Assembly (NCBI RefSeq): GCF_000172795.2
Contig: NZ_CP020948.1
Location: 151,248-215,247 of the forward strand
From: Rhizobium sp. CIAT894
GTDB taxonomy: Bacteria; Pseudomonadota; Alphaproteobacteria; Rhizobiales; Rhizobiaceae
Length of the DNA: 64,000 bases
Reading direction: 5' to 3'
A model generated the notes under the pieces. It worked only from the letters and a program-made list of their open reading frames with translations, was not told the origin of the DNA and did not search any database. A program made the position numbers and the translations under genes. Of the stretch, positions 2,913 to 64,000 are shown one piece after another (positions within the stretch are counted from its first letter, which is position 1; every line of letters starts with the position of its first letter).

Positions 2913-3675
2913 CTGCTTTTTCCCTCTCTACCGACGGTCGCATCAGATCGGGCAGATCCGTGCAGATGCCGAGAACCGGCAGTTTCATGATGTCATCGAG
3001 AACGACCGGCCGCTCCTCGTGCCAGAGCACGATCTCGCGGCCCGCCGCAAAAGCGCGACGCGTTAACGTGTCGGTTACCAGATCCTGCGGACGTTCGCCT
3101 GCTCTTTCCCAGCAGAGATGCAGGATATCGGCGCCGGCCTCGTCGCCCAGCGCATGCGGATCGTGGCCGACGCGGATCAGCACCGAAAGCGGAAAATCGC
3201 AGCCTGCGTCCCTGAGTTCGCGCACCTGCGCCGTATCGAAAGAGCCGAGGCAGGCGAAACGCTGGTTCATCTCGGCAAGATCGCGCCAGCAGCGCAGGCC
3301 GGTGCCGGGGGCCTTGAGCTCGACATAGAGGCCGGTCCCGGTCTCGCGGCCGAGAGCGGCTACCTCCGAAAAACTTGGCACATCGACGCCGTCGAGGGCG
3401 GCAAGCTCGGCGGCCGTCATTTCGGAAATGCGCCGATCGATGCCGAAGACGCGTTCGAGATGGTCGTCATGCGAAACGACGACCACGCCGTCTTTGGTCA
3501 GTTGCGTGTCGAGCTCCCACATCTCAGCACCGAGTTCGGCAGCGCGCCGGAAGGCGGCGATCGTGTTCTCTCGTTCGTGGCCGCTGGCGCCGCGATGGCC
3601 GATGCAGAAGGGAAGCCGGCCTTTGGCCGCCGGCCAGCCGTAGCGGGTGAAAAATGCCGAGAAATCGCGGGTCAT
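2896..3675 (-). CDS. Glycerophosphodiester phosphodiesterase family protein
   Basis: A 259-residue GDPD-family TIM barrel. The N-terminal block IGHRGASGHERENTIAAF holds the catalytic His-Arg and metal-binding Glu-Asn, followed by WELDTQLTKDG and the second catalytic His in VVSHDD. The family cleaves glycerophosphodiesters to an alcohol plus sn-glycerol-3-phosphate, and some members act on sugar phosphodiesters such as agrocinopine (AccF). There is no signal peptide, so it acts in the cytoplasm on imported substrate. Its start overlaps the ATPase stop by one base, and the binding protein, permeases, ATPase and a phosphatase share the operon. This context points to catabolism of a phosphodiester-linked sugar or polyol. 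Confidence 0.9.
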   Translation of the reverse strand: MTRDFSAFFTRYGWPAAKGRLPFCIGHRGASGHERENTIAAFRRAAELGAEMWELDTQLTKDGVVVVSHDDHLERVFGIDRRISEMTAAELAALDGVDVPSFSEVAALGRETGTGLYVELKAPGTGLRCWRDLAEMNQRFACLGSFDTAQVRELRDAGCDFPLSVLIRVGHDPHALGDEAGADILHLCWERAGERPQDLVTDTLTRRAFAAGREIVLWHEERPVVLDDIMKLPVLGICTDLPDLMRPSVEREKAVGRQG

Positions 3676-4730
3676 CAGAGCCTCCCGCCATTTTCATCGA
3701 AGACCAGCACGCCGCGGCTGTCGATCGCCCAGTGCACCTCGTCGCCGACGTGAATGTCGTTGCGCACCGGCTGGATCGACCGCAGCAGCGGCCCGCCGGC
3801 AAGCGCCACGTCGTAGAGGTTCTCGCGGCCCTGCGTTTCGGCGAAGGTGACCTTGCCGGAGACGGGTGTGTCGCCCGCCGGAGTGAAATGCTCCGGCCGG
3901 ACGCCGAGCATCAGCCTCGTGCCCTCGGCGGTGCCGATGGTACTGGGCAGCGGCACGCGGATTTCGCTTTGGGGGATGACAAAGGCGCCCTTGTCCATGA
4001 TACCGCGCAGGAAGGTGATCGGCGGATTTCCGAGGAAGCCGGCGACGAAGGCGGTCTTCGGATCGTTGTACATTTCGGCCGGCGTGGCGATCTGGACGAT
4101 CTCGCCTTCCTTCATGATGGCGATGCGGTCGCACATGCTCATCGCCTCGACCTGGTCATGGGTGACGAGAATGGCGGTGATGCCGGTCTCGCGCTGCAGG
4201 CGGCGGATTTCCGAGCGCATTTCGAGGCGCAGCTTGGCGTCGAGATTGGCGAGCGGTTCGTCGAGCAGCAGCACGTCGGGCTTGCGGATCAATGCGCGGG
4301 CGAGCGCCACTCGCTGCTGCTGGCCGCCGGAAAGCTGCGCGGGACGGCGTTCTATGAGGTTGTCGATGTGAACAAGCCCGGAAATGCGCTCGACCTCCTT
4401 GCGGATTTCGGCGGGGTTGACGCCCTTCACTTTCAGGGGAAAGCCGATGTTCTCGGCGACCGTCATGTGCGGGTAGAGTGCATAGGATTGGAAGACGACG
4501 CCGACATTTCGGGCTTGGCTCGGCAGGTCCGTCACGTCGCGATCGCCGAAGAGGATGCGTCCGCCGGTCGGCCGGTGAATGCCGCAGACCGCAAAAAGCG
4601 TCGTCGATTTGCCGCAGCCGGAAGGGCCGAGCAGCGCCAGCATCTCGCCGTCGCCGACTTCGAGCTGCATGTTCTCGATGACCTTGGTGGAGCCGAAGCT
4701 CTTCGAGAAATTGTCGAGGAGGATGCGCAT
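3675..4730 (-). CDS. CUT1 ABC transporter ATP-binding protein (UgpC/MalK type)
   Basis: The 351-residue protein carries Walker A GPSGCGKST (about residue 35), signature LSGGQQQR, Walker B VLLLDEPLANLD, and a C-terminal OB-fold regulatory domain typical of MalK/UgpC. It powers uptake by the two permeases encoded directly upstream in the transcript. The start ATG overlaps the stop of the permease gene at 4730. UgpC-type ATPases commonly serve glycerol-3-phosphate or glycerophosphodiester import, which fits the GDPD gene next door, but sequence alone does not separate this from other CUT1 sugar ATPases. Confidence 0.93.
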   Translation of the reverse strand: MRILLDNFSKSFGSTKVIENMQLEVGDGEMLALLGPSGCGKSTTLFAVCGIHRPTGGRILFGDRDVTDLPSQARNVGVVFQSYALYPHMTVAENIGFPLKVKGVNPAEIRKEVERISGLVHIDNLIERRPAQLSGGQQQRVALARALIRKPDVLLLDEPLANLDAKLRLEMRSEIRRLQRETGITAILVTHDQVEAMSMCDRIAIMKEGEIVQIATPAEMYNDPKTAFVAGFLGNPPITFLRGIMDKGAFVIPQSEIRVPLPSTIGTAEGTRLMLGVRPEHFTPAGDTPVSGKVTFAETQGRENLYDVALAGGPLLRSIQPVRNDIHVGDEVHWAIDSRGVLVFDENGGRL

Positions 4731-18845: not shown

Positions 18846-20000
18846 ATGATCCTTCACGAACTCATCGACTATGAAACCCTGCGTGTCATCTGGTGGCTGC
18901 TGCTGGGTGTTCTGCTGATCGCCTTTGCGACGACAGGCGGCTTCGATCTCGGCGTCGGCACGCTTCTGCCTTTCGTCGCCAGGACCGATACGGAACGGCG
19001 CGTGGCGATCAACACCATCGGCGCCACCTGGGAAGGTAATCAGGTCTGGCTGATCCTCGGTGGCGGCGCCATTTTCGCCGCCTGGCCGCCGCTCTATGCG
19101 GTCTCCTTCTCGGGCTTCTATCTCGCGATGTTCGCGATCCTTTTCGCGCTCATCCTGCGCCCGGTCGGCTTCAAATACCGGTCGAAGCGGGAAAGTGCCC
19201 GCTGGCGCAACGGCTGGGACTGCGCGCTCTTCATCGGCGGCTTCGTGCCGGCGCTGATCTTCGGCGTTGCCGTCGGCAACGTGCTGCAGGGCGTACCGTT
19301 CCGCTTCGCCGACGATATGCGGATCTTCTACGAAGGCTCGTTCTTTGCCCTGCTCAACCCCTATGCGTTGCTTTGCGGCCTGCTATCCCTGGCCATGCTG
19401 ACGATGCACGGTGCCGCCTGGATGGTGTTGAAGGCGAGCGGCCCGGTTGCTGAGCGGGCGAGGAGCTATGGCAGCATCGCCGCCCTTGTTACCATCGTGA
19501 TGTTTGCCCTCGGGGGCCTCTTCCTGTGGATCGGGGTCGACGGCTACCGTATCACCAGCGATATCAGCCCAATCGGACCTTCCAATCCGCTGCTGAAAAC
19601 GGTGGTGATCGAAAAGGGCGCCTGGCTTGCCAATTACGGCGCCCATTCTTGGACGATCGTCGCGCCCGTCCTCGGCCTTGTGGGGGCGGCATTGGCTTTC
19701 ATCGCCATGCGGGCAAGGCGTGAGGTGATGACGCTGCTCTTCAGCAAGCTTGCGATCTTAGGCATCATCTCGACGGTCGGTCTCTCGATGTTCCCGTTCA
19801 TCCTGCCCTCCTCGCTCGATCCGCGATCAAGCCTGACGGTCTGGGATGCATCCTCTAGCCATATGACGCTGTTCATCATGCTCGTGGTGTCGGCAATTTT
19901 CCTGCCGATCATCTTTGCCTACACCGCCTGGGTCTACAAGGTTTTGTGGGGCAAGGTCGACGAGAAATCCATCACCGACAAGAACAGTCACGCTTACTGA
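18846..20000 (+). CDS. cydB: Cytochrome bd ubiquinol oxidase subunit II
   Basis: A 384-residue CydB with the typical N terminus (YETLRVIWWLLLGVLLIAF, ATTGGFDLGVG), the conserved GATWEGNQVWLI motif, and eight or nine hydrophobic helices. It is the partner of CydA in the bd oxidase and starts 6 bp after the cydA stop. Length matches the family. Confidence 0.96.
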   Translation: MILHELIDYETLRVIWWLLLGVLLIAFATTGGFDLGVGTLLPFVARTDTERRVAINTIGATWEGNQVWLILGGGAIFAAWPPLYAVSFSGFYLAMFAILFALILRPVGFKYRSKRESARWRNGWDCALFIGGFVPALIFGVAVGNVLQGVPFRFADDMRIFYEGSFFALLNPYALLCGLLSLAMLTMHGAAWMVLKASGPVAERARSYGSIAALVTIVMFALGGLFLWIGVDGYRITSDISPIGPSNPLLKTVVIEKGAWLANYGAHSWTIVAPVLGLVGAALAFIAMRARREVMTLLFSKLAILGIISTVGLSMFPFILPSSLDPRSSLTVWDASSSHMTLFIMLVVSAIFLPIIFAYTAWVYKVLWGKVDEKSITDKNSHAY

Positions 20001-20013
20001 GGGAGATGAAACA

Positions 20014-20136
20014 ATGTGGTATTTCGCATGGATTCTCGGCCTGCCGCTGGCGGCCGCCTTCGCTGTCCTCAACGCCATGTGGTATGAGCTGATGGACGAT
20101 GCAGCCAGGAAGAAGGCGCCCGAGACGCGCAAGTAG
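20014..20136 (+). CDS. cydX: Cytochrome bd small subunit CydX
   Basis: A 40-residue single-helix protein beginning MWYFAWILGLPLAAAFAVLN, the CydX/YbgT signature, with the conserved W and E in MWYELMDD. A GGGAGA ribosome site precedes the ATG. CydX stabilises the CydAB oxidase in the inner membrane. The TAG stop codon lies inside the 6-bp target duplication (TAGAAA) of the element starting at 20140, so the insertion landed exactly at the gene's end without altering the protein. Confidence 0.93.
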   Translation: MWYFAWILGLPLAAAFAVLNAMWYELMDDAARKKAPETRK

Positions 20137-20139
20137 AAA
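20134..20139. repeat. Target-site duplication TAGAAA, left
   Basis: TAGAAA directly abuts the left inverted repeat at 20140 and recurs at 24646-24651 directly after the right inverted repeat. Tn3-family transposition usually leaves 5 bp, sometimes 6 bp. Confidence 0.7.
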
Positions 20140-20177
20140 GGGGCTCCGTGGGCATTTCTACAATAATACCCGCTAAG
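20140..20177 (+). repeat. Left 38-bp terminal inverted repeat
   Basis: Begins GGGGCTCCGTGGGCAT and ends ACCCGCTAAG. It pairs with 24608-24645 in inverted orientation with about five mismatches. Confidence 0.75.
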
Positions 20178-20338
20178 GGAATTGAAGTTGTTTGGATTGA
20201 AGCGGTTCGCACGGACTGGCTTTAGTCGCCGGTGAGCGTGATATGGGCTCATGGGAGCGGTGCGCCCTGGGAAAACCATACTCTGGCCTCGGACGTAATC
20301 GACAGCGCGGCTACGCAAGTGCACGAAGGTTGCGGGGC

Positions 20339-20450
20339 TAGAACAGGATGATTTTAGGCCCGGTCGGCCCAAAATCTGAATCCTGTTCTAAATTAAAGAG
20401 TTAGAGCATGATGTCATGAGAAAACCGCTCACACTTTTCGGCATCATGCT
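20339..20450. repeat. RIME-like composite palindromic repeat, copy 2 (inside the element)
   Basis: A 112-bp unit. Module B is TAGAACAGGAT...ATCCTGTTCTA, with inner arms TTTTAGG/CC(A)AAA; module A is AGAGCATGATGTC...GCATCATGCT. It is the near-identical inverted counterpart of 26735-26846. Confidence 0.8.
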
Positions 20451-20535
20451 GGCGGCGCCGCCCGGCAGCTGCCTCCGTAACCACACGATTGCGGCCGGAG
20501 GTCTTAACGAGGTAGAGCGCCCGATCCGTCCGCTG
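20401..20535 (-). pseudogene. Remnant of a GGDEF diguanylate cyclase 3' end
   Basis: On the minus strand a frame ending at the TAA of 20401-20403 reads QRTDRALYLVKTSGRNRVVT. DRALY..K..GRNRVV is the conserved C-terminal end of GGDEF domains. No GGDEF core lies upstream, where the frame runs into unrelated sequence, so only about 25 family residues survive. The last codons run into the RIME-like repeat. It is a relic of earlier DNA inside the element. Confidence 0.5.
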
Positions 20536-20570
20536 CCCGCAACCTCCAAAATATGATAGCCCGCGGCACC

Positions 20571-20580
20571 CGGAGAAGGG
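20571..20580. repeat. 10-bp target duplication of the IS, left
   Basis: CGGAGAAGGG precedes the IS end at 20581 and is repeated exactly at 21746-21755 after the other IS end. Duplications of 8-10 bp are usual for ISAs1-family elements. Confidence 0.85.
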
Positions 20581-21745
20581 CAGGGGAATCGCATATAGGC
20601 GGTAAGCAGTTGTTTTATTGAGGCAGATCGATTCAAAGGCTCTCTGTTGATTTGGAGGGTCGGATGGATCGATTTGCCGCCTGTTTTAAAGCTTTGCCCG
20701 ACCCTCGGGGGCGCAATACGCGCCATCCGCTGATGTCGATCCTGTTCATTGCCATTGCCGCGATCGTCTGCGGCGCCGAAAGCTGTGCCGACATGGCCGA
20801 CTTCGGCATCTCCAAGAAGAGGTGGCTCAAGACGATCGTGCCGCTGCCCTACGGCATTCCCAGCCATGACACGTTCTCCACCGTATTCCGCTGCCTCAAT
20901 CCGGATGCCTTCGAAGCCGCCTTCCGCCGCTTTACCGAAGCCTTTGCAAAAGGCATCGAAGGCGTGGTGGCGGTCGACGGCAAAGCGGTGCGCGGCGCCT
21001 ATAAGCGCGGTGCCAAGGCGACGCCGCTGCACCTCGTCAACGTCTGGGCCGCCGGTTGCGGCCTGGTCATCGGCCAACAGACCGCACCGCGCCGCAACGA
21101 GGTGCAAGGCGTGCTCAAGGCGCTTGCGCTTCTGTCGCTCGAAGGCGCCATCGTCACGGCCGATGCTCTGCATTGCCGCGCCGACACGGCCCGCGCCATC
21201 CTGGCCACCGGCGGCGACTATGCCCTGGCGCTGAAAGGCAACCAACCCGGCCTGCTGGCCCAGGCGATTGCCCGCCTTGACGATATCGAGCCGCTCGACA
21301 GCATCCAGACCGCCGCCGAGAACGACCATGATCGCATCGACAGCCGCCGCGCCAGCATCGTCGCCGTCGATGATATTGACTTTCCCGGCCTGCAAGCCAT
21401 CGGCTCCGTCGAGGCCACCAGCCGCCATGCCGATGGCCGCCTGACCAGCCATGTCCGCTACTTCCTGCTCTCCACGGTCATGTCGGCCGCCGCCCTCATC
21501 GAGGTGACCCGAACCCATTGGGAGATCGAAAACAAACTGCATTGGGTGCTCGACGTCCAGTTCCGCGAGGATGCCGCCAGAAACAGAAAGGATCACGGGC
21601 CGGCAAACATCGCACTGCTGCGCAAGATCGCCCTCAACCTCATCCGATCCCACCCAGATAAGGCATCCATCCGACGCAAAATCAAAAAGGCGGGATGGGA
21701 CGATCAGTTCCTTATCTCCCTTATCGCTCATATGCGATAGCCCTG
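20581..21745 (+). mobile_element. Complete ISAs1-family insertion sequence
   Basis: A 1165-bp IS starting CAGGG and ending CCCTG. Its inverted ends share about 21 of 26 positions (core ATCGCATAT, then GCG.TAAG). It is flanked by a perfect 10-bp duplication CGGAGAAGGG. One intact transposase gene fills it, so it is probably functional and inserted fairly recently into the Tn3-like element. Confidence 0.88.
20664..21740 (+). CDS. ISAs1 family transposase
   Basis: A 358-residue DDE transposase of the ISAs1 family (relatives are labelled H-repeat-associated protein). Diagnostic blocks are ALPDPRGRNTRHPL at the N terminus, PSHDTFSTVFRCLNP, VAVDGKAVRG (first catalytic Asp), VTADALHCR (second Asp) and THWEIENKLHWVLDVQFRED (catalytic Glu). 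The ATG at 20664 follows GGAGGG; an in-frame TTG lies 4 codons upstream. The gene ends 5 bp before the IS right end. No frameshift or internal stop is visible, so it should be active. Confidence 0.93.
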   Translation: MDRFAACFKALPDPRGRNTRHPLMSILFIAIAAIVCGAESCADMADFGISKKRWLKTIVPLPYGIPSHDTFSTVFRCLNPDAFEAAFRRFTEAFAKGIEGVVAVDGKAVRGAYKRGAKATPLHLVNVWAAGCGLVIGQQTAPRRNEVQGVLKALALLSLEGAIVTADALHCRADTARAILATGGDYALALKGNQPGLLAQAIARLDDIEPLDSIQTAAENDHDRIDSRRASIVAVDDIDFPGLQAIGSVEATSRHADGRLTSHVRYFLLSTVMSAAALIEVTRTHWEIENKLHWVLDVQFREDAARNRKDHGPANIALLRKIALNLIRSHPDKASIRRKIKKAGWDDQFLISLIAHMR

Positions 21746-21755
21746 CGGAGAAGGG
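21746..21755. repeat. 10-bp target duplication of the IS, right
   Basis: Exact second copy of CGGAGAAGGG, directly abutting the right IS end. Confidence 0.85.
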
Positions 21756-21766
21756 GATCTGTGCTC

Positions 21767-22660
21767 TCAAACCAACATCGACTGCTGGGCGGAGATACCT
21801 GCCGTCGCGCCTTGCGATATTGCCGTGGTGACCGAGTTCATGGCTGGGTTTGCGAGATCGCCGGCAGCGTAGATGCCCGGCATGCTGGTTTCGCGGCGCT
21901 CGTCGACCTTGAGGGCGATGCCGAAGGGCGTATTGACCGTGGCGAGGCCCAGTGATTCATGCAGGCTTGAGGACGGCTTGTTGCGCGGATGCGCGAACAG
22001 GATATCGACCCCGGCATTGCGGCCGCCCTCGAGATTAACGGTGGTGATATGGCCCCGGTGATGCGCGATTTCGGCGATCCGGCCATCAACGACAGGTATG
22101 TTGCGGCGCGCCAGATCGGCGCGGATATCGGGTGCAATGTCGTGACCATCGGCGAAGACCGTCAACGTGTCGGTCCAATCCTGGTACAGCCTGACATAAT
22201 TGTGCGACGGCGGACCGGACCAGACGAGGCCCCAATGCTGGTCGGCGACTTCAAAGCCATCGCAATAGGGGCAGGGCACGATGGACGTGCCCCAGCTTTC
22301 GGCAAAACCGGGAACATCAGGCATCTGGTCGGCAACGCCGTAGCTCAGGATCAGGCGGCGCGCTCCAAGACTTTCGCCATCGCCAGTGAGGACGGAGAAG
22401 TCGTCGATGGCGCCGGAGATGCTGTCGGCTCGGGCATTGACCAGCTTGACAGTAGGATAACGCGCCAACTGCTGCCGCGCCTCGGCCAGGATGTCCAGCG
22501 GCGGCTTGTGATCGTGGCCGAGCAGACCATGCGAGTGGCCGGCGAAACGATTGCGCGGCAGGCCGGTATCGAGAATGGTGGCCTTGCGGCGGGCACGGCC
22601 GAGTTGCAGGGCAGCGGCGAGGCCGGCAAAGCTGCCGCCGATGATGATGACGTCATCCAT
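21767..22660 (-). CDS. NAD(P)/FAD-dependent oxidoreductase, thioredoxin-reductase-like
   Basis: The start at 22660 (GGAG ribosome site) gives 297 residues, typical for single-domain TrxB-like flavoproteins. It has the FAD-binding dinucleotide fold DVIIIGGSFAGLAAALQLGRA at the N terminus, a CPYCDGFE redox-type CxxC motif, and a C-terminal FAD-contact segment GIYAAGDLANPAMNSVTTAISQG. The NADPH-site glycine motif is altered (GLVWSGPPSH), so the electron donor is uncertain. It is divergent from the tetR gene, with palindromic half-sites between, and is probably controlled by it. Possible roles include disulfide or xenobiotic reduction. Confidence 0.88.
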   Translation of the reverse strand: MDDVIIIGGSFAGLAAALQLGRARRKATILDTGLPRNRFAGHSHGLLGHDHKPPLDILAEARQQLARYPTVKLVNARADSISGAIDDFSVLTGDGESLGARRLILSYGVADQMPDVPGFAESWGTSIVPCPYCDGFEVADQHWGLVWSGPPSHNYVRLYQDWTDTLTVFADGHDIAPDIRADLARRNIPVVDGRIAEIAHHRGHITTVNLEGGRNAGVDILFAHPRNKPSSSLHESLGLATVNTPFGIALKVDERRETSMPGIYAAGDLANPAMNSVTTAISQGATAGISAQQSMLV

Positions 22661-22807
22661 GGTGATAAGCTCCGTGCTGTTGAGAGAGTGTGATTGGCTG
22701 AGCCGTGGCGCGTCTCGTCCACCGATACGCATCGATATGGCCAAGCGGCTTAGAGAAACTCGATCTGAGGGACAGGATAAAATCCGTTCTTTGGCTTGCA
22801 TATTTCA

Positions 22808-22843
22808 GATACTGCATGGTATCGTAAACGTGAATAACGATAC
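22808..22843. promoter_or_regulatory. Candidate TetR operator with three half-sites
   Basis: GTATCGT (22819-22825) and ACGATAC (22837-22843) form a perfect inverted repeat with an 11-bp spacer. A further GATAC at 22808-22812 makes a second palindrome with GTATC. The site lies in the divergent gap, 21 bp before the TetR start. Confidence 0.6.
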
Positions 22844-22863
22844 TGTCAAGGATCTTAATAGTC

Positions 22864-23511
22864 GTGACCGAAAATAGTCGAGGCCGGCGCGGCCGGCCAG
22901 TCAACGAGGCGCTTGGCCAAACGATAGTCGACGCAGCATACGAACTCTTTGTGGAATTGGGTTTTCAAGCGACGACCTTGGACAAGGTCACCCAGCGCGC
23001 GAAGATATCCAAGCTCAGCATCTATCGGCACTTCGAGAGCAAGGAGGCGCTGTTCGGCGCGGCCGTCGCCGCCCGCTGCCATCAGTTTGCACCACAAGCC
23101 CTTTTTGAAGGGGTCGACGGTTCGGCCGAAGAGCAGCTCATGGCGGTGGGATCATCCCTGCTTCGCACGCTGTTGAGCCCGGACGTCCGCAGTGTCGAAG
23201 CCATGGTCATGGCCGACAAGACGAATCAAAAGTCGTTGAGCAAGCTCTATTACGAAGCCGGCCCCGCCCATGTCATCGCGCAAATCGAGGCCGTGTTGCG
23301 TCAGTTGCACGCGAAGGCGGTTCTGAACGTGCCCGATCCTCTTCAGTCCGCCCGCTTGTTTGGCGCGCTTATCAAAGGATCCGATCTCCTGATTATTGCG
23401 CGCTTCGATCAGGCAAGAGCAGAGGACGACAACGAAATCGAATCCTATTGCCGCTCGGCCGTCGCCATGTTCATCGCCGCGCACCGTGGCAGCGACCACG
23501 CGGGCGGATAG
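22864..23511 (+). CDS. TetR/AcrR family transcriptional regulator
   Basis: A 215-residue protein starting at GTG 22864, with no clear ribosome site. The helix-turn-helix is at about residues 18-60 (IVDAAYELFVELGFQATTLDKVTQRAKISKLSIYRHFESKEALF, shown in parts: FQATTLDKVTQRAKIS, SIYRHFESKEALF). The C-terminal domain resembles the TetR_C group with LFGALIKGSD. It is divergent from the oxidoreductase and 34 bp upstream of the methyltransferase, and probably represses both through the palindromes at 22808-22843. The inducer is unknown. Confidence 0.9.
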   Translation: MTENSRGRRGRPVNEALGQTIVDAAYELFVELGFQATTLDKVTQRAKISKLSIYRHFESKEALFGAAVAARCHQFAPQALFEGVDGSAEEQLMAVGSSLLRTLLSPDVRSVEAMVMADKTNQKSLSKLYYEAGPAHVIAQIEAVLRQLHAKAVLNVPDPLQSARLFGALIKGSDLLIIARFDQARAEDDNEIESYCRSAVAMFIAAHRGSDHAGG

Positions 23512-23545
23512 CCTAGTCAAGAATGGATCAGAACAAGGATATGGC

Positions 23546-24409
23546 ATGGCAGAGGAAAATGTTTATCAGGTAGCTGACTGGAATGGCCAAAGCGGGGAGC
23601 GCTGGGTCGCTTACCAGGCCCGGCTCGATGCCATGATGGTGGTGTTCGGCCAGGCCGCGATCGAAGCCGCCGCGCCCGCCACGGGTGAGCGCGTGCTGGA
23701 CGTCGGCTGCGGCGCGGGAGCGTCTAGCCTGGCTTTGGCCGCCCGCGTCGGCGCGGGGGGCCAAGTGCTGGGCGTAGACATATCCGAGCCGCTGATCGGC
23801 AGAGCGCGCGTATTAGCTCCGCAGGACACGCCGGTCTTGTTCCAGGTGGCCGACGCCAGCAGCACCGAGTTGCCCGAGGGCGCGTTCGACATCCTGTTCT
23901 CGCGCTTCGGAGTGATGTTCTTTGACGATCCGACAGGGGCGTTCGCCCATATGCGCCGTGCGCTCAAGCCGGGCGGGCGGGTCGCTTTCGTCTGCTGGCG
24001 GGGCATGGCCGAGAACGATTGGGTGCGCTTGCCGATGGGCGCGATGAAGGGCATCCTCCCGCCGACGGCGCCGCCCGATCCCGAAGCGCCCGGCCCGTTC
24101 TCGTTCGGCGATCAGGGGCGGGTGGCGCGTATTCTGACGGCGGCTGGCTTCACCGATATCGCTATCGCGCCCTTCGATGCCTCCATCCCGTTCGGCGAGG
24201 GCGGGACGCGGGACGCGGCGATCGACGACGCGGTGGAGATGACACTCGAGGTCGGCCCGCTGGCGCGCGCTCTCGCTGATCAGCCCGACGACATCCGCGC
24301 CCGCGCCTCGGCCGCGGTTCGTGCCGCCTTCGCGGGCTGCCCCGGTGAGCGGTCGGTGATGATCGACGGCGCGGCGTGGATCGTCACGGCGCGCAATCCG
24401 GCAAGCTGA
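23546..24409 (+). CDS. Class I SAM-dependent methyltransferase
   Basis: The ATG at 23546 starts MAEENVYQVADWNGQSGERW, giving 287 residues; upstream in-frame codons overlap tetR. Motif I is VLDVGCGAGASSLALAARV, the acidic post-I residue is in VLGVDIS, and motif III is ALKPGGRVAFVCWRG. It resembles UbiE/Methyltransf_25-type enzymes of sphingomonads and rhizobia. Base composition appears richer in GC third positions than the neighbouring tetR, suggesting an assembled cassette. It is probably cotranscribed with tetR. Substrate unknown; a small molecule is likely. Confidence 0.87.
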   Translation: MAEENVYQVADWNGQSGERWVAYQARLDAMMVVFGQAAIEAAAPATGERVLDVGCGAGASSLALAARVGAGGQVLGVDISEPLIGRARVLAPQDTPVLFQVADASSTELPEGAFDILFSRFGVMFFDDPTGAFAHMRRALKPGGRVAFVCWRGMAENDWVRLPMGAMKGILPPTAPPDPEAPGPFSFGDQGRVARILTAAGFTDIAIAPFDASIPFGEGGTRDAAIDDAVEMTLEVGPLARALADQPDDIRARASAAVRAAFAGCPGERSVMIDGAAWIVTARNPAS

Positions 24410-24513
24410 CAGGGATTGATAAGGGGAGACGCCCCGTCTCGATGGCTCGGCATGGCCCTGACGCGATCGTCACCGCTTGCGGCCGGAACGCAGGGGAGGT
24501 ACGGCGGCGGGCT

Positions 24514-24600
24514 TTTGTCCCATTAATTTATATCGCGCTTATCGGCGACTACCTTTGGAACAAAATTAACCGCCCCCTCGAACGATTCAGGACAATCCGC
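24514..24600 (+). pseudogene. Possible 3' remnant of a Tn3-family tnpA
   Basis: The frame reads FVPLIYIALIGDYLWNKI then NRPLERFRTIR. This resembles the C terminus of Tn3-family TnpA (pattern SPLxWxHIxLTGDYxW...FRPLR). It lies 7 bp inside the right terminal repeat, exactly where tnpA normally ends in these transposons. The rest of tnpA is missing and the preceding sequence is unrelated. The identification rests on a short stretch and is moderate. Confidence 0.5.
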
Positions 24601-24607
24601 GCTAACC

Positions 24608-24645
24608 CTCAGCGGGTATTAGTGCAGACATGCCCACAGAGCCCC
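24608..24645 (-). repeat. Right 38-bp terminal inverted repeat
   Basis: Read on the minus strand it begins GGGGCTCTGTGGGCAT and ends ACCCGCTGAG; it is the counterpart of 20140-20177. Confidence 0.75.
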
Positions 24646-24651
24646 TAGAAA
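24646..24651. repeat. Target-site duplication TAGAAA, right
   Basis: Second copy of TAGAAA, directly after the right terminal repeat. In the uninterrupted ancestor the cydX stop codon would have been followed directly by the hairpin at 24658. Confidence 0.7.
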
Positions 24652-24657
24652 TGCAAA

Positions 24658-24679
24658 GGGCGCGGCTCGCACCGCGCCC
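24658..24679 (-). terminator. Rho-independent-type terminator, originally shared by convergent genes
   Basis: Perfect 8-bp stem GGGCGCGG/CCGCGCCC with a 6-nt loop, followed on the minus strand by TTTGC. It ends the fusion dehydrogenase transcript (stop at 24691). Before the 4.5-kb insertion it would also have lain about 20 bp past cydX, acting bidirectionally. Confidence 0.65.
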
Positions 24680-24690
24680 ATTGCATTGCA

Positions 24691-26694
24691 TCAGCCTTCC
24701 AGCCATTTCACCTGATCGGGCGTCAGCTTGATGTCGAGCGCCGAAAGGCTGTCTTCCAGTTCGGCGACGGTGCGCGGCCCGATCAGCGGAATGACCGGGA
24801 AAGGCTGAGCGATCACATAGGCGAGCGCGATATGGATCGGATTGCGGCCGAGCTTGTTGGCGAGCTCGATGGCGCGGTCGCGGCGTCCGAAATTGCGCTC
24901 GGAATACCAGACCCGTACGATCTCCTCGTCATCCTTCTTGTCGCGGCCGGCGCGGTCGGTGAAGAAGCCGCGGCCCTGGCTGGACCAGGCGAAATTCGGG
25001 ATCTGTTTCTCGTTCAGCCATTTCTTCCAGTCGTCATCGGAGGCGGCGACGCAGCCGGCCCAGATCGGATCGAGCATCTCGGCAAGCGAGAAATTGTTGG
25101 AAAGTGCTGCCGGCGCCGCCTTGCCGGTTTTCTCTGCATAGGCGATCGCTTCGTCGAAACGCGCCCGTGTCCAGTTCGAACCGCCGAAGATGCCGCGGAT
25201 GCGGCCGCGTTTGACCTCGGCATCCATGGCGTCGACGAATTCGCCGACGGGCACGTCGGTATTGTCGCGATGCATGAAATAGATGTCGACATAGTCGGTT
25301 TTCAGCCGGGCGAGCGACTGGTCGAGCTGCTTGGCGATCATATCAGGATAGCAGAGCGGCGAATGCGCGCCCTTGCCGATCAGCACGATCTCTTCGCGCG
25401 GCACCTTGCGGCTGGTGTGCCAGTCTCCGAAAATCGCCTCCGTTTTGCCGGCTCCATAGACAAAAGCCGTATCGAAGGCATTGCCGCCGGCCTCATAGAA
25501 GGCGTCGAGCGTCAGCGAGGCGGCGGCGAAATTCGGGAAGAATTCGAAGCCGAGCGTGACGACCGAGGCCGGCTTGGAGATACCGGGTATCTGGCGCTTC
25601 GGAATGCTGCTGCCGCGCGTGACCGCGCCGCCTGATATGTTGGCCGTGCGCTTTGCCGCCTTTTCGACGCCGTATTCGAGGCCGACCGAGGCGCGCCACT
25701 GGTCGAGCACACGCAGATTTCCGATCGAATCCGCCCAGCTCATGCCGGGAGAGGTGAATTCGGTTCTGCCGGCGCGGATGGCATCGCCCGCCGCATCGGC
25801 TTCGAAGGAATAGAGCCAGCGATCTTCCTTGACCTCGACGGTTTCCTGCTTGCCGCCCTTGAAGATCTCGATCTTGCCGACGCCCCCCTTGTGGCCCGAG
25901 GCGAACCAGAAGTCGGCGACTTCGATCCGGCCCTCGGAGCCGATGATGCGCAGCACATTGTCCTGCTGTGCCATGATCGAGCAGGAGACTTCGGCGATGA
26001 TCTCGTTCGGGAATTTGAGCACTGCCGACGCCCATTCATCGACGCCGCTTTCTCCGAGATGGGCGACGCCCGAAACCTTTTCCGGTTCGAGGAAGGCTTT
26101 GCCTTCCGCAGCGCCCGCGATCAGCCGCGCCATCGAGACCGGATAGCCGCCGACATCGAGAATGCCGCCGCCGGCGGTATCGTTGGCGAACAGCCGGTGT
26201 TCCGGCCTGTAGCTGCCCATATTGAAGCCGAAGCTCGAGCGAATGATGCGCAGCGTGCCGATGACGCCGCTCTTGATGAGTTCGACCAGCTTCTCCGTCT
26301 GCGGATGCACCCGGTACATGAAGGCCTCGCCGGCAAAGACGCCGGCCTTCTTGGCTTCGTAGTAAACCGCCTCAGCATCATAGGCCGAAAGCGCGATCGG
26401 CTTTTCCACCAGGATATGCTTGCCGGCGCGGGCGGCCTTGATTGCCCATTCGGCATGGCCGGTATGGGGTACGGAAATATAGACCGCATCGACCTCGGGG
26501 TCGGAAAGCAGCGCTTCGTAGCCGTTGACGATGCGGGCGCCGGGGAAGTTTTCGGCAAGGCCAGGCTTGGAAGGATTGCGGGTAGCGATCGCCACCAGCT
26601 TGCCGGTGCGCGAGTGGGCGACGCCATCCGCAAAGGTGCGGGCGATGGTGCCGGGGCCGATAATGCCCCAGCGGATCGGTTGATCGGAAGTCAT
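24691..26694 (-). CDS. Fused Gfo/Idh/MocA dehydrogenase and aldo/keto reductase
   Basis: A 667-residue fusion, start at 26694 (AAAGAGG ribosome site). Residues 1 to about 350 are a Gfo/Idh/MocA dehydrogenase: Rossmann motif WGIIGPGTIARTF, and EKPIALSAYDAE with the family catalytic EKP. After a linker (about 350-370), residues 370-667 are an aldo/keto reductase with the D-Y-K-H tetrad: DTAFVYG, IGKGAH, YFMHRDN. Each half normally exists as a separate NAD(P) enzyme of 320-360 residues. The fusion suggests sequential redox steps or a paired epimerisation of one sugar. It lies downstream of the CUT1 genes, separated by a RIME-like repeat. Confidence 0.9.
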   Translation of the reverse strand: MTSDQPIRWGIIGPGTIARTFADGVAHSRTGKLVAIATRNPSKPGLAENFPGARIVNGYEALLSDPEVDAVYISVPHTGHAEWAIKAARAGKHILVEKPIALSAYDAEAVYYEAKKAGVFAGEAFMYRVHPQTEKLVELIKSGVIGTLRIIRSSFGFNMGSYRPEHRLFANDTAGGGILDVGGYPVSMARLIAGAAEGKAFLEPEKVSGVAHLGESGVDEWASAVLKFPNEIIAEVSCSIMAQQDNVLRIIGSEGRIEVADFWFASGHKGGVGKIEIFKGGKQETVEVKEDRWLYSFEADAAGDAIRAGRTEFTSPGMSWADSIGNLRVLDQWRASVGLEYGVEKAAKRTANISGGAVTRGSSIPKRQIPGISKPASVVTLGFEFFPNFAAASLTLDAFYEAGGNAFDTAFVYGAGKTEAIFGDWHTSRKVPREEIVLIGKGAHSPLCYPDMIAKQLDQSLARLKTDYVDIYFMHRDNTDVPVGEFVDAMDAEVKRGRIRGIFGGSNWTRARFDEAIAYAEKTGKAAPAALSNNFSLAEMLDPIWAGCVAASDDDWKKWLNEKQIPNFAWSSQGRGFFTDRAGRDKKDDEEIVRVWYSERNFGRRDRAIELANKLGRNPIHIALAYVIAQPFPVIPLIGPRTVAELEDSLSALDIKLTPDQVKWLEG

Positions 26695-32158: not shown

Positions 32159-32177
32159 TCGATATTTGCAGAGTTGG

Positions 32178-32278
32178 TGGCTAGGGTTCCGGCGTCGCAA
32201 GGCGTGACTGGTCCGAGAGCTGCCACCGGCAGGGGAGACATCCTGCCGGGTGCACGGCGGGATAAAAACCCGGGAGAC
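32178..32278 (+). promoter_or_regulatory. Guanidine-I (ykkC) riboswitch
   Basis: The segment holds the conserved ykkC blocks in order: CTAGGGTTCCGG (32181-32192), ACTGGTCCGAGAGC (32207-32220), and ACGGCGGGATAAAAACCCGGGAGA (32254-32277, described by its core GGGATAAAA and CCCGGGAGA). A terminator hairpin follows at 32291. The downstream genes are guanidine uptake and degradation genes, the expected regulon of this class. Guanidine binding should prevent termination. Confidence 0.9.
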
Positions 32279-34307: not shown

Positions 34308-35134
34308 GCGAGTTGGTGATCGAAAGGGTCTGGAAGGAATATGGCGACCAGATCGTGCTTGAGAACGTGTCGCTGACCGTCGCCTCGCGCGCCTTCGTCG
34401 CCCTTGTCGGCCCGTCCGGCTGCGGCAAGACGACCTTCCTGCGCATGCTGCTTGGCCAGGAGCGACCGACGCGGGGCACTATACGGCTTGACGGTGAACC
34501 GTTGCCGCTCGAGCCAGGGCCGGATCGCGGCGTCGTTTTCCAACGCTACTCCGTCTTCCCGCATCTGACCGTGCTCGGCAATGTGCTGCTCGGCCGCGAA
34601 TTTTCCGCGGCGCGCTACAAGGCAAAGCTTTTCGGCGCTACCCGCCGCAGCGCGGTCGACGAGGCGCGGCGGTTGATCGGCGAAGTCGGCCTTGCCGGCG
34701 CCGAGGATAAATACCCGGCACAGCTTTCCGGTGGCATGCAGCAGCGCCTGGCGCTGGCGCAGGCGCTCATCATGAAGCCGAAAGTGCTGTTGCTCGACGA
34801 GCCATTCGGGGCGCTCGACCCCGGCATTCGCGCCGAAATCCATACCTTGATGAAACGGCTCTGGCACGAAACGCAGATGACCGTCGTCATGGTGACGCAC
34901 GACATGCGCGAGGCCTTCACGCTGGCGACGCGGGTCGTCGCCTTCGAGCGCCGGCGTGACCGCCCGGAGGAGAAGGAGCGCTACGGCGCGACCATCACCA
35001 AGGACATTTCCATCTGGCCGCCCCGGCTTGCCGGTGCGCCGTCCATCTTCAGCCCCGACCGGGACGGCCCGGTCATTTCTCTGGGCCATCGTCGGGACGA
35101 CCCGGCTTCCAGTCCGTCAGGAGAAAAACCATGA
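34304..35134 (+). CDS. ABC transporter ATP-binding protein of the guanidine operon
   Basis: A 276-residue ATPase of the SsuB/TauB/NrtD type: Walker A GPSGCGKTT, signature LSGGMQQRLALAQA, Walker B VLLLDEPFGALD, H-loop VMVTHDM. The ATG at 34304 overlaps the permease stop. The C terminus extends about 50 residues beyond the ATPase core and overlaps the next gene by 4 bp. It energises guanidine uptake (inference from the operon). Confidence 0.9.
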   Translation: MSELVIERVWKEYGDQIVLENVSLTVASRAFVALVGPSGCGKTTFLRMLLGQERPTRGTIRLDGEPLPLEPGPDRGVVFQRYSVFPHLTVLGNVLLGREFSAARYKAKLFGATRRSAVDEARRLIGEVGLAGAEDKYPAQLSGGMQQRLALAQALIMKPKVLLLDEPFGALDPGIRAEIHTLMKRLWHETQMTVVMVTHDMREAFTLATRVVAFERRRDRPEEKERYGATITKDISIWPPRLAGAPSIFSPDRDGPVISLGHRRDDPASSPSGEKP

Positions 35135-46230: not shown

Positions 46231-46667
46231 CTCTTTGATCTTGTACATGTCCGGGCGAAAAGCCGCTTCGCCGTTCGGGGAACGCATGACGGATGTGGAC
46301 GCCACGCCCCAGAACCGGGACATCGGCAGCTTTGCCTGCGCAGCTATCACTATCGCCAGCGCATGGTCCATGGCGTCGCTTTCGACGTGCCTCCGGGTAA
46401 GGTGCGAGAGCTGTCAGTAAGCATGCGTGTTCGTGGGCTCCGCCATCTTACGCAGTCCCAGATTGAGTCCTTCTGCAAGCAGCACATTGAGCAGGCCGAT
46501 CTGGCCACCGCATGGAATGCCGGTTCTCAAATGGCTAAAGGCTTCGGTACCACCTCACGGAGGCGGTTGTCGCCCTGGTGCTCGTCGCAGAAGGCCGCAA
46601 CTACAGCTGGACCGCCCGCTATCTCGGCATCAGCAAGAATACAGTGACCAGCATCGCTTTGAAGACC
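46231..46667. other. Decayed intergenic DNA
   Basis: About 440 bp without an intact gene. Short frames suggest broken coding sequence; the best is the HTH-like fragment listed at 46545. Otherwise nothing is recognised. Confidence 0.4.
46545..46667 (+). pseudogene. Possible remnant with a transposase/invertase-like helix-turn-helix
   Basis: The frame reads RYHLTEAVVALVLVAEGRN then YSWTARYLGISKNTVTSI. The AEG-(S/N)...AR-LGIS-NTV pattern is that of N-terminal helix-turn-helix segments of transposases and related proteins. No start, no downstream domain and no inverted repeats are visible. Confidence 0.25.
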
Positions 46668-62558: not shown

Positions 62559-62560
62559 GC

Positions 62561-62613
62561 AAAAGAAAAGGCCCCCGAACGTTGCCGTCGCGGAAGCCCT
62601 CTCTGATCTAGAC
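62561..62613 (-). ncRNA. Counter-transcribed RNA (ctRNA) of the repB-repC region
   Basis: On the minus strand a -35 box TTGACT (62643-62648) with a -10-like GATTCT about 17 bp on predicts a start near 62613. The transcript ends in a stem GGCTTCCG/CGGGGGCC (62570-62598, two G-U pairs) followed by TTTTCTTTT. Size (about 50 nt) and position match the ctRNA that limits repC expression and sets incompatibility in repABC replicons. Confidence 0.75.
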
Positions 62614-62707
62614 ACCCAGAGAATCACATTTCCGCGAATCATAGTCAAGAGTCTTTGGCACCGAATTTGGTGAGCCGTGTTCTTTTGCCTTGAAGAAGGC
62701 GAAGACA

Positions 62708-64000
62708 ATGGAAAGCGGAAGTGTGACGACGCCCTTCGGGCGGCGGCCGATGACGTTTGGCATGCTGGCAAGCCAGGCGGCGGCTCGAAAAATCGAGCCC
62801 GGCCAATCGATTGATAAGTGGAAACTCTATCGTGCCCTGTGCGAGGCAAGGCCGCTGCTCGGCGTTACCGATCGGGCGCTCGCTATTCTGAACGCCTTGC
62901 TGAGCTTTTATCCGAAGGGAGAGCTCTCCGAAGGCAACGGGCTTGTCGTGTTTCCTTCCAATGCGCAGCTCTCCTTGCGTGCGCATGGAATGGCGGAGCA
63001 GACGATCCGCCGGCACCTGGCGAGCTTGATCGAGGCCGGATTGCTGATCCGCAAGGATAGCCCGAACGGCAAGCGTTACGCACGCAAGGAGCAGGGTGGG
63101 GAGCTGCGCGAGGCTTTCGGTTTTTCACTGGCGCCGCTGCTTGCGCGCGCTGAGGAGATCGAGCGGCTGGCGGCGGAGGTGGCTGCGGATCGATTGCACC
63201 TGCAGCGGCTCAGAGAGCGTCTGACGCTTTGCCGACGCGACGTCGCCAAGCTTATCGAGATGGCGTTGGAGGAGGGGGCTGCCGGCGATTGGAGTGCGGT
63301 TCATTTGCATTTTCGCAATATCGTCGAACAACTGCCACGGTCACCATCCGCCGAGCAGATCGCGGCCGCGCTCGACGAATTGGAGATGTTGCGCGAAGAG
63401 ATCACCAATCAATTGGAAATGCAGGCTAAAGCTCAAAATCAAAGCGGCAATGCCCGACATTCTGAGCGGCACATACAGAATTCAAACCCACACTCCATTA
63501 CTGAATTTGAACCAAGCTTCGACCCGAAGCAGGGCGCAACGGCGGATGATCGATCGGCAGGTCGGGCCGTACCGATAGCTGAAATACAGCAAGTTGGGGG
63601 GAAGAACGAGCATGTCTCGGGCGCACGCGCGGCCTCCGCTGCTCTCGGTACGCCGAAGTCCTTCCCGCTGGGGCTGGTGCTGCAGGCGTGCCCTGAGATT
63701 GCAGCCTACGGACCCCAGGGCTCGGTCGGCACTTGGCGCGATCTGATGGCGGCCGCTGTGGTCGTTCGTTCGATGCTCGGCGTCAGCCCATCGGCTTATG
63801 AGCAGGCCTGCGAAATCATGGGTGCGGAAAATGCCGCCACCGTCATGGCCTGCGTCCTCGAAAGGGCAGGGCATATCAACTCCGCCGGCGGTTACCTGCG
63901 CGATCTGACACGCCGCGCCGAAAGGGGAGAATTTGCCATTGGTCCAATGTTGATGGCCCTTGCCCGTACCAATTCACCGGTGAGAGGGAAGGTGGGATGA
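62708..64000 (+). CDS. repC: Replication initiator RepC
   Basis: From ATG 62708, 430 residues, ending on the last base of the window. The N terminus MESGSVTTPFGRRPMTFGML is typical of RepC. A winged-helix segment follows (LSLRAHGMAEQTIRRHLASL), then a central helical domain, a low-complexity linker (about residues 240-310), and a conserved C-terminal domain (CPEIAAYGPQGSVGTWRDLM). It initiates plasmid replication at an origin inside its own gene. Translation and transcription should be limited by the ctRNA upstream. Confidence 0.95.
   Translation: MESGSVTTPFGRRPMTFGMLASQAAARKIEPGQSIDKWKLYRALCEARPLLGVTDRALAILNALLSFYPKGELSEGNGLVVFPSNAQLSLRAHGMAEQTIRRHLASLIEAGLLIRKDSPNGKRYARKEQGGELREAFGFSLAPLLARAEEIERLAAEVAADRLHLQRLRERLTLCRRDVAKLIEMALEEGAAGDWSAVHLHFRNIVEQLPRSPSAEQIAAALDELEMLREEITNQLEMQAKAQNQSGNARHSERHIQNSNPHSITEFEPSFDPKQGATADDRSAGRAVPIAEIQQVGGKNEHVSGARAASAALGTPKSFPLGLVLQACPEIAAYGPQGSVGTWRDLMAAAVVVRSMLGVSPSAYEQACEIMGAENAATVMACVLERAGHINSAGGYLRDLTRRAERGEFAIGPMLMALARTNSPVRGKVG
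63415..63600. other. Probable oriV within repC
   Basis: This stretch of repC is visibly richer in A+T than its surroundings and encodes the low-complexity linker. In characterised repABC plasmids the origin is an AT-rich segment inside repC. The assignment is by analogy. Confidence 0.4.

Follow-up and report, generated by a model that had tools for sequence, protein, structure and literature searches.

Inverted tnpA-side ends on a cargo-carrying Tn3-family unit at the cydX stop codon of a Rhizobium plasmid

How does a transposon come to consist of cargo genes between two matching ends, with no working transposase of its own? The question is raised by a 4506-bp unit of Rhizobium sp. CIAT894 that lies at positions 20140-24645 of the window (the whole stretch analysed: 64,000 nucleotides of NZ_CP020948.1, positions 151,248 to 215,247), on the plasmid-borne contig C2 of a six-contig genome. 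A first-pass annotation described the unit as a Tn3-like passenger cassette, inserted on the cydX stop codon and mobilised in trans. Comparison with relatives gives it a different origin: a Tn3-family transposon has decayed into a non-autonomous unit, in which both ends and their adjoining DNA are inverted copies of one tnpA-side end, and which occupies a shared cydX junction and contains nested inserts. Confidence in this reading is high, and extends to its observed parts only: the origin of the ends; the insertion at cydX with its duplication; the presence of the junction in four genomes; and the nested inserts.

Two ends from one side of a transposon

The annotated boundaries proved exact. 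Sequence reading, a repeat search, and a recount agree on the length, on a pair of 38-bp inverted repeats (IRs) identical at 33 of 38 positions, and on a 6-bp duplication, TAGAAA, that abuts both IRs (Table 1). The hallmarks of the Tn3 family are thus present: IRs of about 38 bp starting with GGGG, a 5- or 6-bp target duplication, and ends homologous to a tnpA-bearing Tn3 transposon. The intact tnpA and resolvase genes of an autonomous member are not; neither a functional tnpA nor a functional tnpR was found inside the unit, as the annotation had held. The unit has no tnpR; tnpA persists as 3'-end remnants at both ends, the protein being represented by C-terminal residues 948-979.

The annotation had proposed searching rhizobial genomes for the same ends, and relatives do carry them. 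With up to three mismatches allowed, the two IRs of the unit are the only ones in their own genome (backwards control, 0). Matching IRs occur in 16 of 148 genus genomes (backwards control, 0) and in 14 of 394 genomes drawn from the family. One related genome, G036, contains an autonomous Tn3-family transposon of 3808 bp (locus L038, 1028-4835) in the order IRL-tnpR-tnpA-IRR, where IRL and IRR are the left and right IRs. Its products are a 204-aa resolvase (Resolvase, 2e-42) and a 989-aa transposase (DDE_Tnp_Tn3, 4e-134). Of the eight two-ended copies in G036, six are full-length (3808 bp, 99.97-100% identity); a seventh is nearly complete, and the eighth is interrupted by a different element that sits inside it. 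Plasmid records contain the transposon as well, with at least 80% of its length in one place in 38 of 58 matching records. A copy in another genome (G120, L049) has a passenger region with just two open reading frames (ORFs) of at least 170 aa.

Both IRs of the window unit are of the IRR type, and the DNA next to them follows suit. In a sister copy (L039), the left end corresponds to positions 3581-3808 of the autonomous transposon, inverted (228 bp, 86% identity), and the right end to positions 3625-3808. The remnants in the window unit are shorter and have short deletions; the right one still encodes its TnpA residues at 72% identity. Copies elsewhere retain more of the gene. In the left end at the site designated AATCTGCC, the start of tnpA (autonomous positions 804-938) adjoins the flavin adenine dinucleotide (FAD) oxidoreductase gene of the cargo and is joined to positions 3538-3808 (L043, L048) or followed by 3702-3808 (L047). 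These copies represent tnpA with an internal deletion; of L043, a remnant of 1.36 kb is left, both ends included. The copy in N324 keeps further tnpA fragments. Together, the L039, AATCTGCC-site, and N324 copies are read as a decay series.

Because both ends hold the 3' end of tnpA, and because copies elsewhere retain more of it, the unit is a decayed transposon; the notion of a passenger cassette with no transposase in its own origin was not borne out. The ancestor would have had one copy of tnpA beside the cargo, with a second, inverted tnpA-side end serving in place of IRL. Later erosion of tnpA would have left the cassette dependent for its movement on the TnpA of an autonomous relative, acting in trans. 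Two observations speak against this account: Pfam assigns no family to the right-end ORF (24376-24648), and matching 5-bp flanks were found at just one of the eight two-ended autonomous copies in G036. Certain 5-mers, such as TTGTT and AAAAT/ATTTT, are shared between different G036 copies (L038, L040, L063-L067), as expected of replicative rearrangements.

Tn3-family carriers without a transposase are a known kind, to judge from excerpts of PMC4133298 and PMC13367494. With unit transposons of the family, the window unit shares the 38-bp GGGG...TAAG ends, the 5- to 6-bp duplication, and end homology to an autonomous element; it differs in lacking tnpA and tnpR, in having two tnpA-side ends, and in holding cargo between them. 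The elements named TIMEs and TIME-COMPs appear in those excerpts as Tn3-derived non-autonomous carriers of chance segments, moved in trans with 5- or 6-bp duplications. The unit resembles them in this, but each of its ends comprises one outward IR and a tnpA fragment, rather than a miniature element with two IRs. Tn3-family composites also are described (Tn5271, with two IS1071 elements, and the Tn3434 composite; excerpts of PMC4133298). There, as here, transposon ends bracket cargo, whereas here the flanking copies are cut to fragments of about 130-230 bp.

The unit might nonetheless be a true TIME-COMP or composite, in which the cargo is flanked and mobilised by a pair of complete Tn3-family elements, miniature or full, each with its own two IRs. 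Such a structure would present the same tnpA side twice, in inverted orientation, as seen here, and the duplication would fit, TIME-COMPs with 5-bp and TIMEs with 5- or 6-bp duplications being on record in the excerpts of PMC4133298. Moreover, Sinorhizobium fredii GR64 has a piece comprising IRL, tnpR, and the start of tnpA to the left of the cargo, oriented as a full left copy would be, and in Microvirga lupini a nearly full-length transposon lies near the cargo. However, only outer IRs are present, one facing outward per end: no inner IR was detected in window positions 19000-26000 or in L039 at up to 11 mismatches, a search that further-decayed IRs would escape. The inner IRs may have decayed past recognition. 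The cargo at the AATCTGCC site also meets the transposon near the start of tnpA (autonomous position 804), not at IRL. A composite origin is judged unlikely, and a single decayed transposon with a duplicated, inverted tnpA-side end is preferred.

One old insertion at cydX

The insertion spared cydX, as had been claimed. The stop codon TAG (20134-20136) lies inside the left TAGAAA copy, the reading frame is intact, and the product is a genuine CydX of 40 aa (Pfam YbgT_YccB, 6e-14; TIGR02106, 7e-19). A pattern search recovered the junction of cydX with the IR in three of 148 genus genomes (G000, G002, and G036), and WSM2304 has it too, making it common to four Rhizobium genomes, that of the window included; G002 is counted as R. 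acidisoli FH23, whose coordinates it has. The window and G036 agree in the base of insertion, the orientation, and the 6-bp duplication. R. acidisoli and WSM2304 have one common deletion junction, which removed the right IR. The annotation had named relatives with the same genes and no terminal repeats as evidence that would count against a transposon. These two strains fit that description only superficially, since the left IR and the left TAGAAA are present and it is the right end that is deleted.

The ancestral site with a single TAGAAA, also predicted, was found. A query made of the joined flanks matches 124 plasmid records; in 96, a single location accounts for at least 80% of the query, and some of these contain other, shorter inserts. 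All 12 of the junctions fetched lack the element, and four contain TAGAAA; the predicted empty site is matched exactly over the junction (Rhizobium leguminosarum A1; locus L056). N324 is among the 12 empty junctions (L052), though it carries the cassette elsewhere. The unit entered between cydX and a hairpin downstream, the 6-bp duplication recreating the cydX stop.

Did the four genomes inherit one insertion, or did the same cassette enter independently at a hot spot downstream of cydX? Several results tell against a single event. In the cargo tree, a single clade uniting the copies from the four cydX sites was not recovered (three changes). Compared in 200-base bins, the window and R. acidisoli are 96.5-99.5% identical over positions 21601-24000; for the left end the figure is 95%, and for the left flank 87-95%. 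The gap between cydX and the aldo/keto reductase gene, moreover, holds other inserts in relatives (H168, H171, L058), among them a RelE/ParE-CopG toxin-antitoxin pair (RelE/ParE genes in H168 and H171); it may for this reason be a tolerated insertion spot. Independent arrivals would nevertheless have to reproduce the identical base, orientation, and 6-bp duplication in the window and G036, as well as the right-end deletion junction that R. acidisoli and WSM2304 share, along with their closest flanks (96.3 and 97.4%), despite different cargo (FAD gene, 89.7%). Left-end divergence also resembles flank divergence. The hot-spot explanation is quite improbable. Because cargo identity exceeds that of the left end and flank, and because the strains with the closest flanks differ more in cargo, the pattern is instead read as one old insertion at cydX, in which the cargo tract would have been exchanged afterwards.

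The annotation further claimed that the unit displaced the cydX terminator. This is plausible rather than established: a stable hairpin does stand beyond the unit (minimum free energy -27.2 kcal/mol, z -5.1), but its T-run, in a scan of this strain, lies on the minus strand only.

The window copy has since acquired insertions of its own. An insertion sequence (IS) of the ISAs1 family has its own DDE transposase (NF033564, 1.6e-97; 326 bits against a cut-off of 70), 27-nt inverted ends, and the 8-bp duplication GGAGAAGG on either side, all in keeping with the family. At least seven full-length copies of it, the window copy counted, occur in the genome at about 100% identity (query 20581-21746), which suggests a recent burst. 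A RIME-like dispersed repeat of 113 bp is matched at least 27 times in the same genome over about 100 bp or more, itself counted (40 of 63 candidates scored). L034 and L039, relatives with the insertion at the same site, have neither the IS nor the repeat; both are later insertions into the unit. They amount to about 1.3 kb, without which the unit measures about 3.2 kb, comparable to its 3319-bp sister in G036. Of 491 matching plasmid records, not one spans 80% of the window stretch at a single location; recent arrival of the nested inserts would lead one to expect this.

Table 1. Features of the unit and its borders (window coordinates).
Feature	Position	Strand	Basis
cydX, 40 aa, stop within left duplication	20014-20136	+	Pfam, TIGR02106
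Left target duplication TAGAAA	20134-20139		Sequence; single copy at empty sites
Left 38-bp IR, tnpA-side (IRR) type	20140-20177	+	Repeat search, IR scans
Inverted tnpA 3'-end remnant	20140-20272	-	DNA match to autonomous 3732-3808 and 3638-3687
113-bp dispersed repeat, in left end	20338-20450		Own-genome matches
8-bp duplication GGAGAAGG, left of ISAs1 element	20572-20579		Sequence
ISAs1-family IS, 27-nt ends, transposase 20664-21740	20580-21746	+	NF033564, inverted repeat, copy count
8-bp duplication GGAGAAGG, right of ISAs1 element	21747-21754		Sequence
FAD oxidoreductase, 297 aa, CPYC motif, putative member of the DepH/HlmI/GliT dithiol-oxidase group	21767-22660	-	phmmer against PDB
Palindrome GTATCGT-11-ACGATAC between divergent genes, candidate TetR operator	22819-22843		Arm conservation
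TetR-family regulator, TetR_N and TetR_C_7	22864-23511	+	Domain search
Class I SAM methyltransferase, 287 aa, predicted fold closest to GtmA/TmtA	23546-24409	+	Domain search, fold comparison
TnpA C-terminal remnant, residues 948-979 of autonomous TnpA, 72% identity	24511-24607	+	Protein match; DNA match to autonomous 3666-3743
Right 38-bp IR, also tnpA-side type	24608-24645	-	Repeat search, IR scans
Right target duplication TAGAAA	24646-24651		Sequence
GC-rich hairpin between convergent cyd operon and aldo/keto reductase gene	24650-24687		Scan, folding

Movement beyond cydX

The cassette occurs with at least one Tn3 IR at seven sites: cydX; BT03; AATCTGCC; N324; R711/G081, counted as one site because the right flank is common to both; S. 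fredii GR64; and S. americanum CFNEI73. Both ends are kept, at least partly, at four of the seven, and the BT03 copy is flanked by a clean 5-bp duplication, TTACA. Because it is found with a Tn3 end at no fewer than seven Rhizobiaceae sites, the cassette appears to have moved as a unit within this family. Mobilisation in trans, as the annotation had proposed, is a sensible inference: the cassette is present at several other sites, one with the clean duplication, and relatives carry an autonomous transposon whose ends are the same. Beyond the remnant itself, no TnpA matching the 3.8-kb transposon was found in the unit's own genome, and the unit would therefore be stranded there.

The window does contain a relic of a different Tn3-family transposase (DDE_Tnp_Tn3; 46291-46548, minus strand, with one in-frame TGA). 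It was considered as a source or helper and set aside: its DNA does not resemble that of the 3.8-kb transposon, and its protein is only 29% identical over 84 residues.

Other findings weigh against movement as a Tn3 unit. In the stretches fetched, three of the seven sites have a single IR only, and the duplication at the AATCTGCC site matches in at best four of five bases. Movement is read from sequences. A transposon remnant lies within 1.5 kb of the methyltransferase gene at eight of 30 genus loci (part of the loci from the 73 of 148 genus genomes with any match); 22 have none. Three of these 22 (L197, L201, and L202) are known carriers in which the remaining end is farther away. The remaining 19 point to additional routes of travel for the cargo.

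One further arrangement concerns the same gene. In a Pseudogulbenkiania metagenome-assembled genome (L108, 2906-7861), the methyltransferase gene lies directly outside the end of a more distant Tn3-family transposon (TnpA identity, 38%), hinting at capture by a second transposon.

The cargo and its putative function

What, then, is being carried? In a phmmer search against PDB, the flavoenzyme matches 3fbs (3e-64), DepH (1e-56, 196 bits), 4ntd (7e-44, 153 bits), 4fk1 (6e-33, 117 bits), and GliT (2e-29, 106 bits); the next thioredoxin reductase follows at 4e-16 (62 bits). With its CPYC motif aligned, the enzyme is thus closer to the DepH/HlmI/GliT group than to thioredoxin reductases, as a putative member of that group should be. 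On these relative scores it is unlikely to be a true thioredoxin reductase, 4fk1 notwithstanding. A protein search finds relatives at 83-96% identity in many bacteria, named only thioredoxin reductase or oxidoreductase. The flavoenzyme thus resembles the oxidases DnoP, DepH, HlmI, and GliT (excerpts of PMC11317636 and PMC3826145) as an FAD enzyme with a CXXC motif, DepH being its nearest characterised PDB match; here the putative oxidase is borne on a transposon, together with a TetR regulator and a methyltransferase. The latter differs from the gliotoxin S-methyltransferase GtmA/TmtA (excerpts of PMC5356443), with about 20% identity, and any such activity is putative.

The arms of the palindrome between the divergent genes recur in 14 of 51 FAD-TetR pairs, some of which are near-duplicates, and the palindrome overlaps a promoter-like site on the minus strand; it is a possible TetR operator. 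An anti-phage role was considered and rejected: the methyltransferase has a single PADLOC match, to mad2 (6.5e-23), which spans residues 36-154 only, the general methyltransferase domain. In other bacteria (L127, L130, and L114 among them), the flavoenzyme and methyltransferase genes flank varying third genes; judged by eye, these resemble genes for a small membrane methyltransferase, an alpha/beta hydrolase, or a short-chain dehydrogenase/reductase.

These resemblances allow a tentative proposal, held at somewhat less than even confidence: the cargo would protect against dithiol or disulfide natural products of the gliotoxin-like or dithiolopyrrolone type. The flavoenzyme would re-oxidise reactive dithiols, the methyltransferase would cap thiols, and TetR would control both. 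Three considerations pull the other way: the function is based on homology and fold only; 4fk1, named a putative thioredoxin reductase, ranks between DepH and GliT; and OxaG and RoqN, presumably O-methylation enzymes, score nearly as high as GtmA in the fold comparison.

There is about an even prospect that the cargo is instead an ordinary redox or tailoring module (for quinone or other small-molecule modification, for example), unrelated to dithiol toxins. Class I SAM methyltransferase folds are poorly specific; the scores of OxaG and RoqN approach that of GtmA; the partner genes between flavoenzyme and methyltransferase vary; and 4fk1 stands slightly above GliT. Against such a module, among the matches listed, the flavoenzyme is far nearer to DepH and 4ntd than to the other thioredoxin reductases. 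An oxidase has also been reported in producers of gliotoxin and holomycin, as has an S-methylation step (excerpts of PMC5356443 and PMC3826145). Joining the proposed protective function to the history of the unit gives a broader picture, held slightly more tentatively still: rhizobia may be acquiring, by way of decayed Tn3 units with inverted ends, a transposon-borne cassette for resistance to dithiol/disulfide toxins, composed of a DepH-group dithiol oxidase, a GtmA-like thiol methyltransferase, and a TetR sensor, which would also be spreading across Proteobacteria by other means. Among the matches listed, the titles and abstract openings of literature on rhizobial gliotoxin resistance or transposon-borne dithiol oxidases contain no description of this end structure with this cargo.

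Elsewhere in the window, about 3 kb of the plasmid separates a Guanidine-I riboswitch (32170-32278) from a Guanidine-II riboswitch (35056-35105). Positions 62559-62710 contain the ctRNA_p42d antisense RNA and an S-element, both typical of repABC plasmids.

Together, the empty sites, the several other insertion sites, and the intermediate stages show a Tn3-family transposon becoming a transposase-less gene carrier. Its oxidase-methyltransferase module is widely shared in soil and root bacteria, and its two predicted enzymes are similar to the pair of defences known against gliotoxin and holomycin. Should the proposed function be true, the cassette would give bacteria exposed to such toxins from soil fungi and actinomycetes a mobile means of protection.

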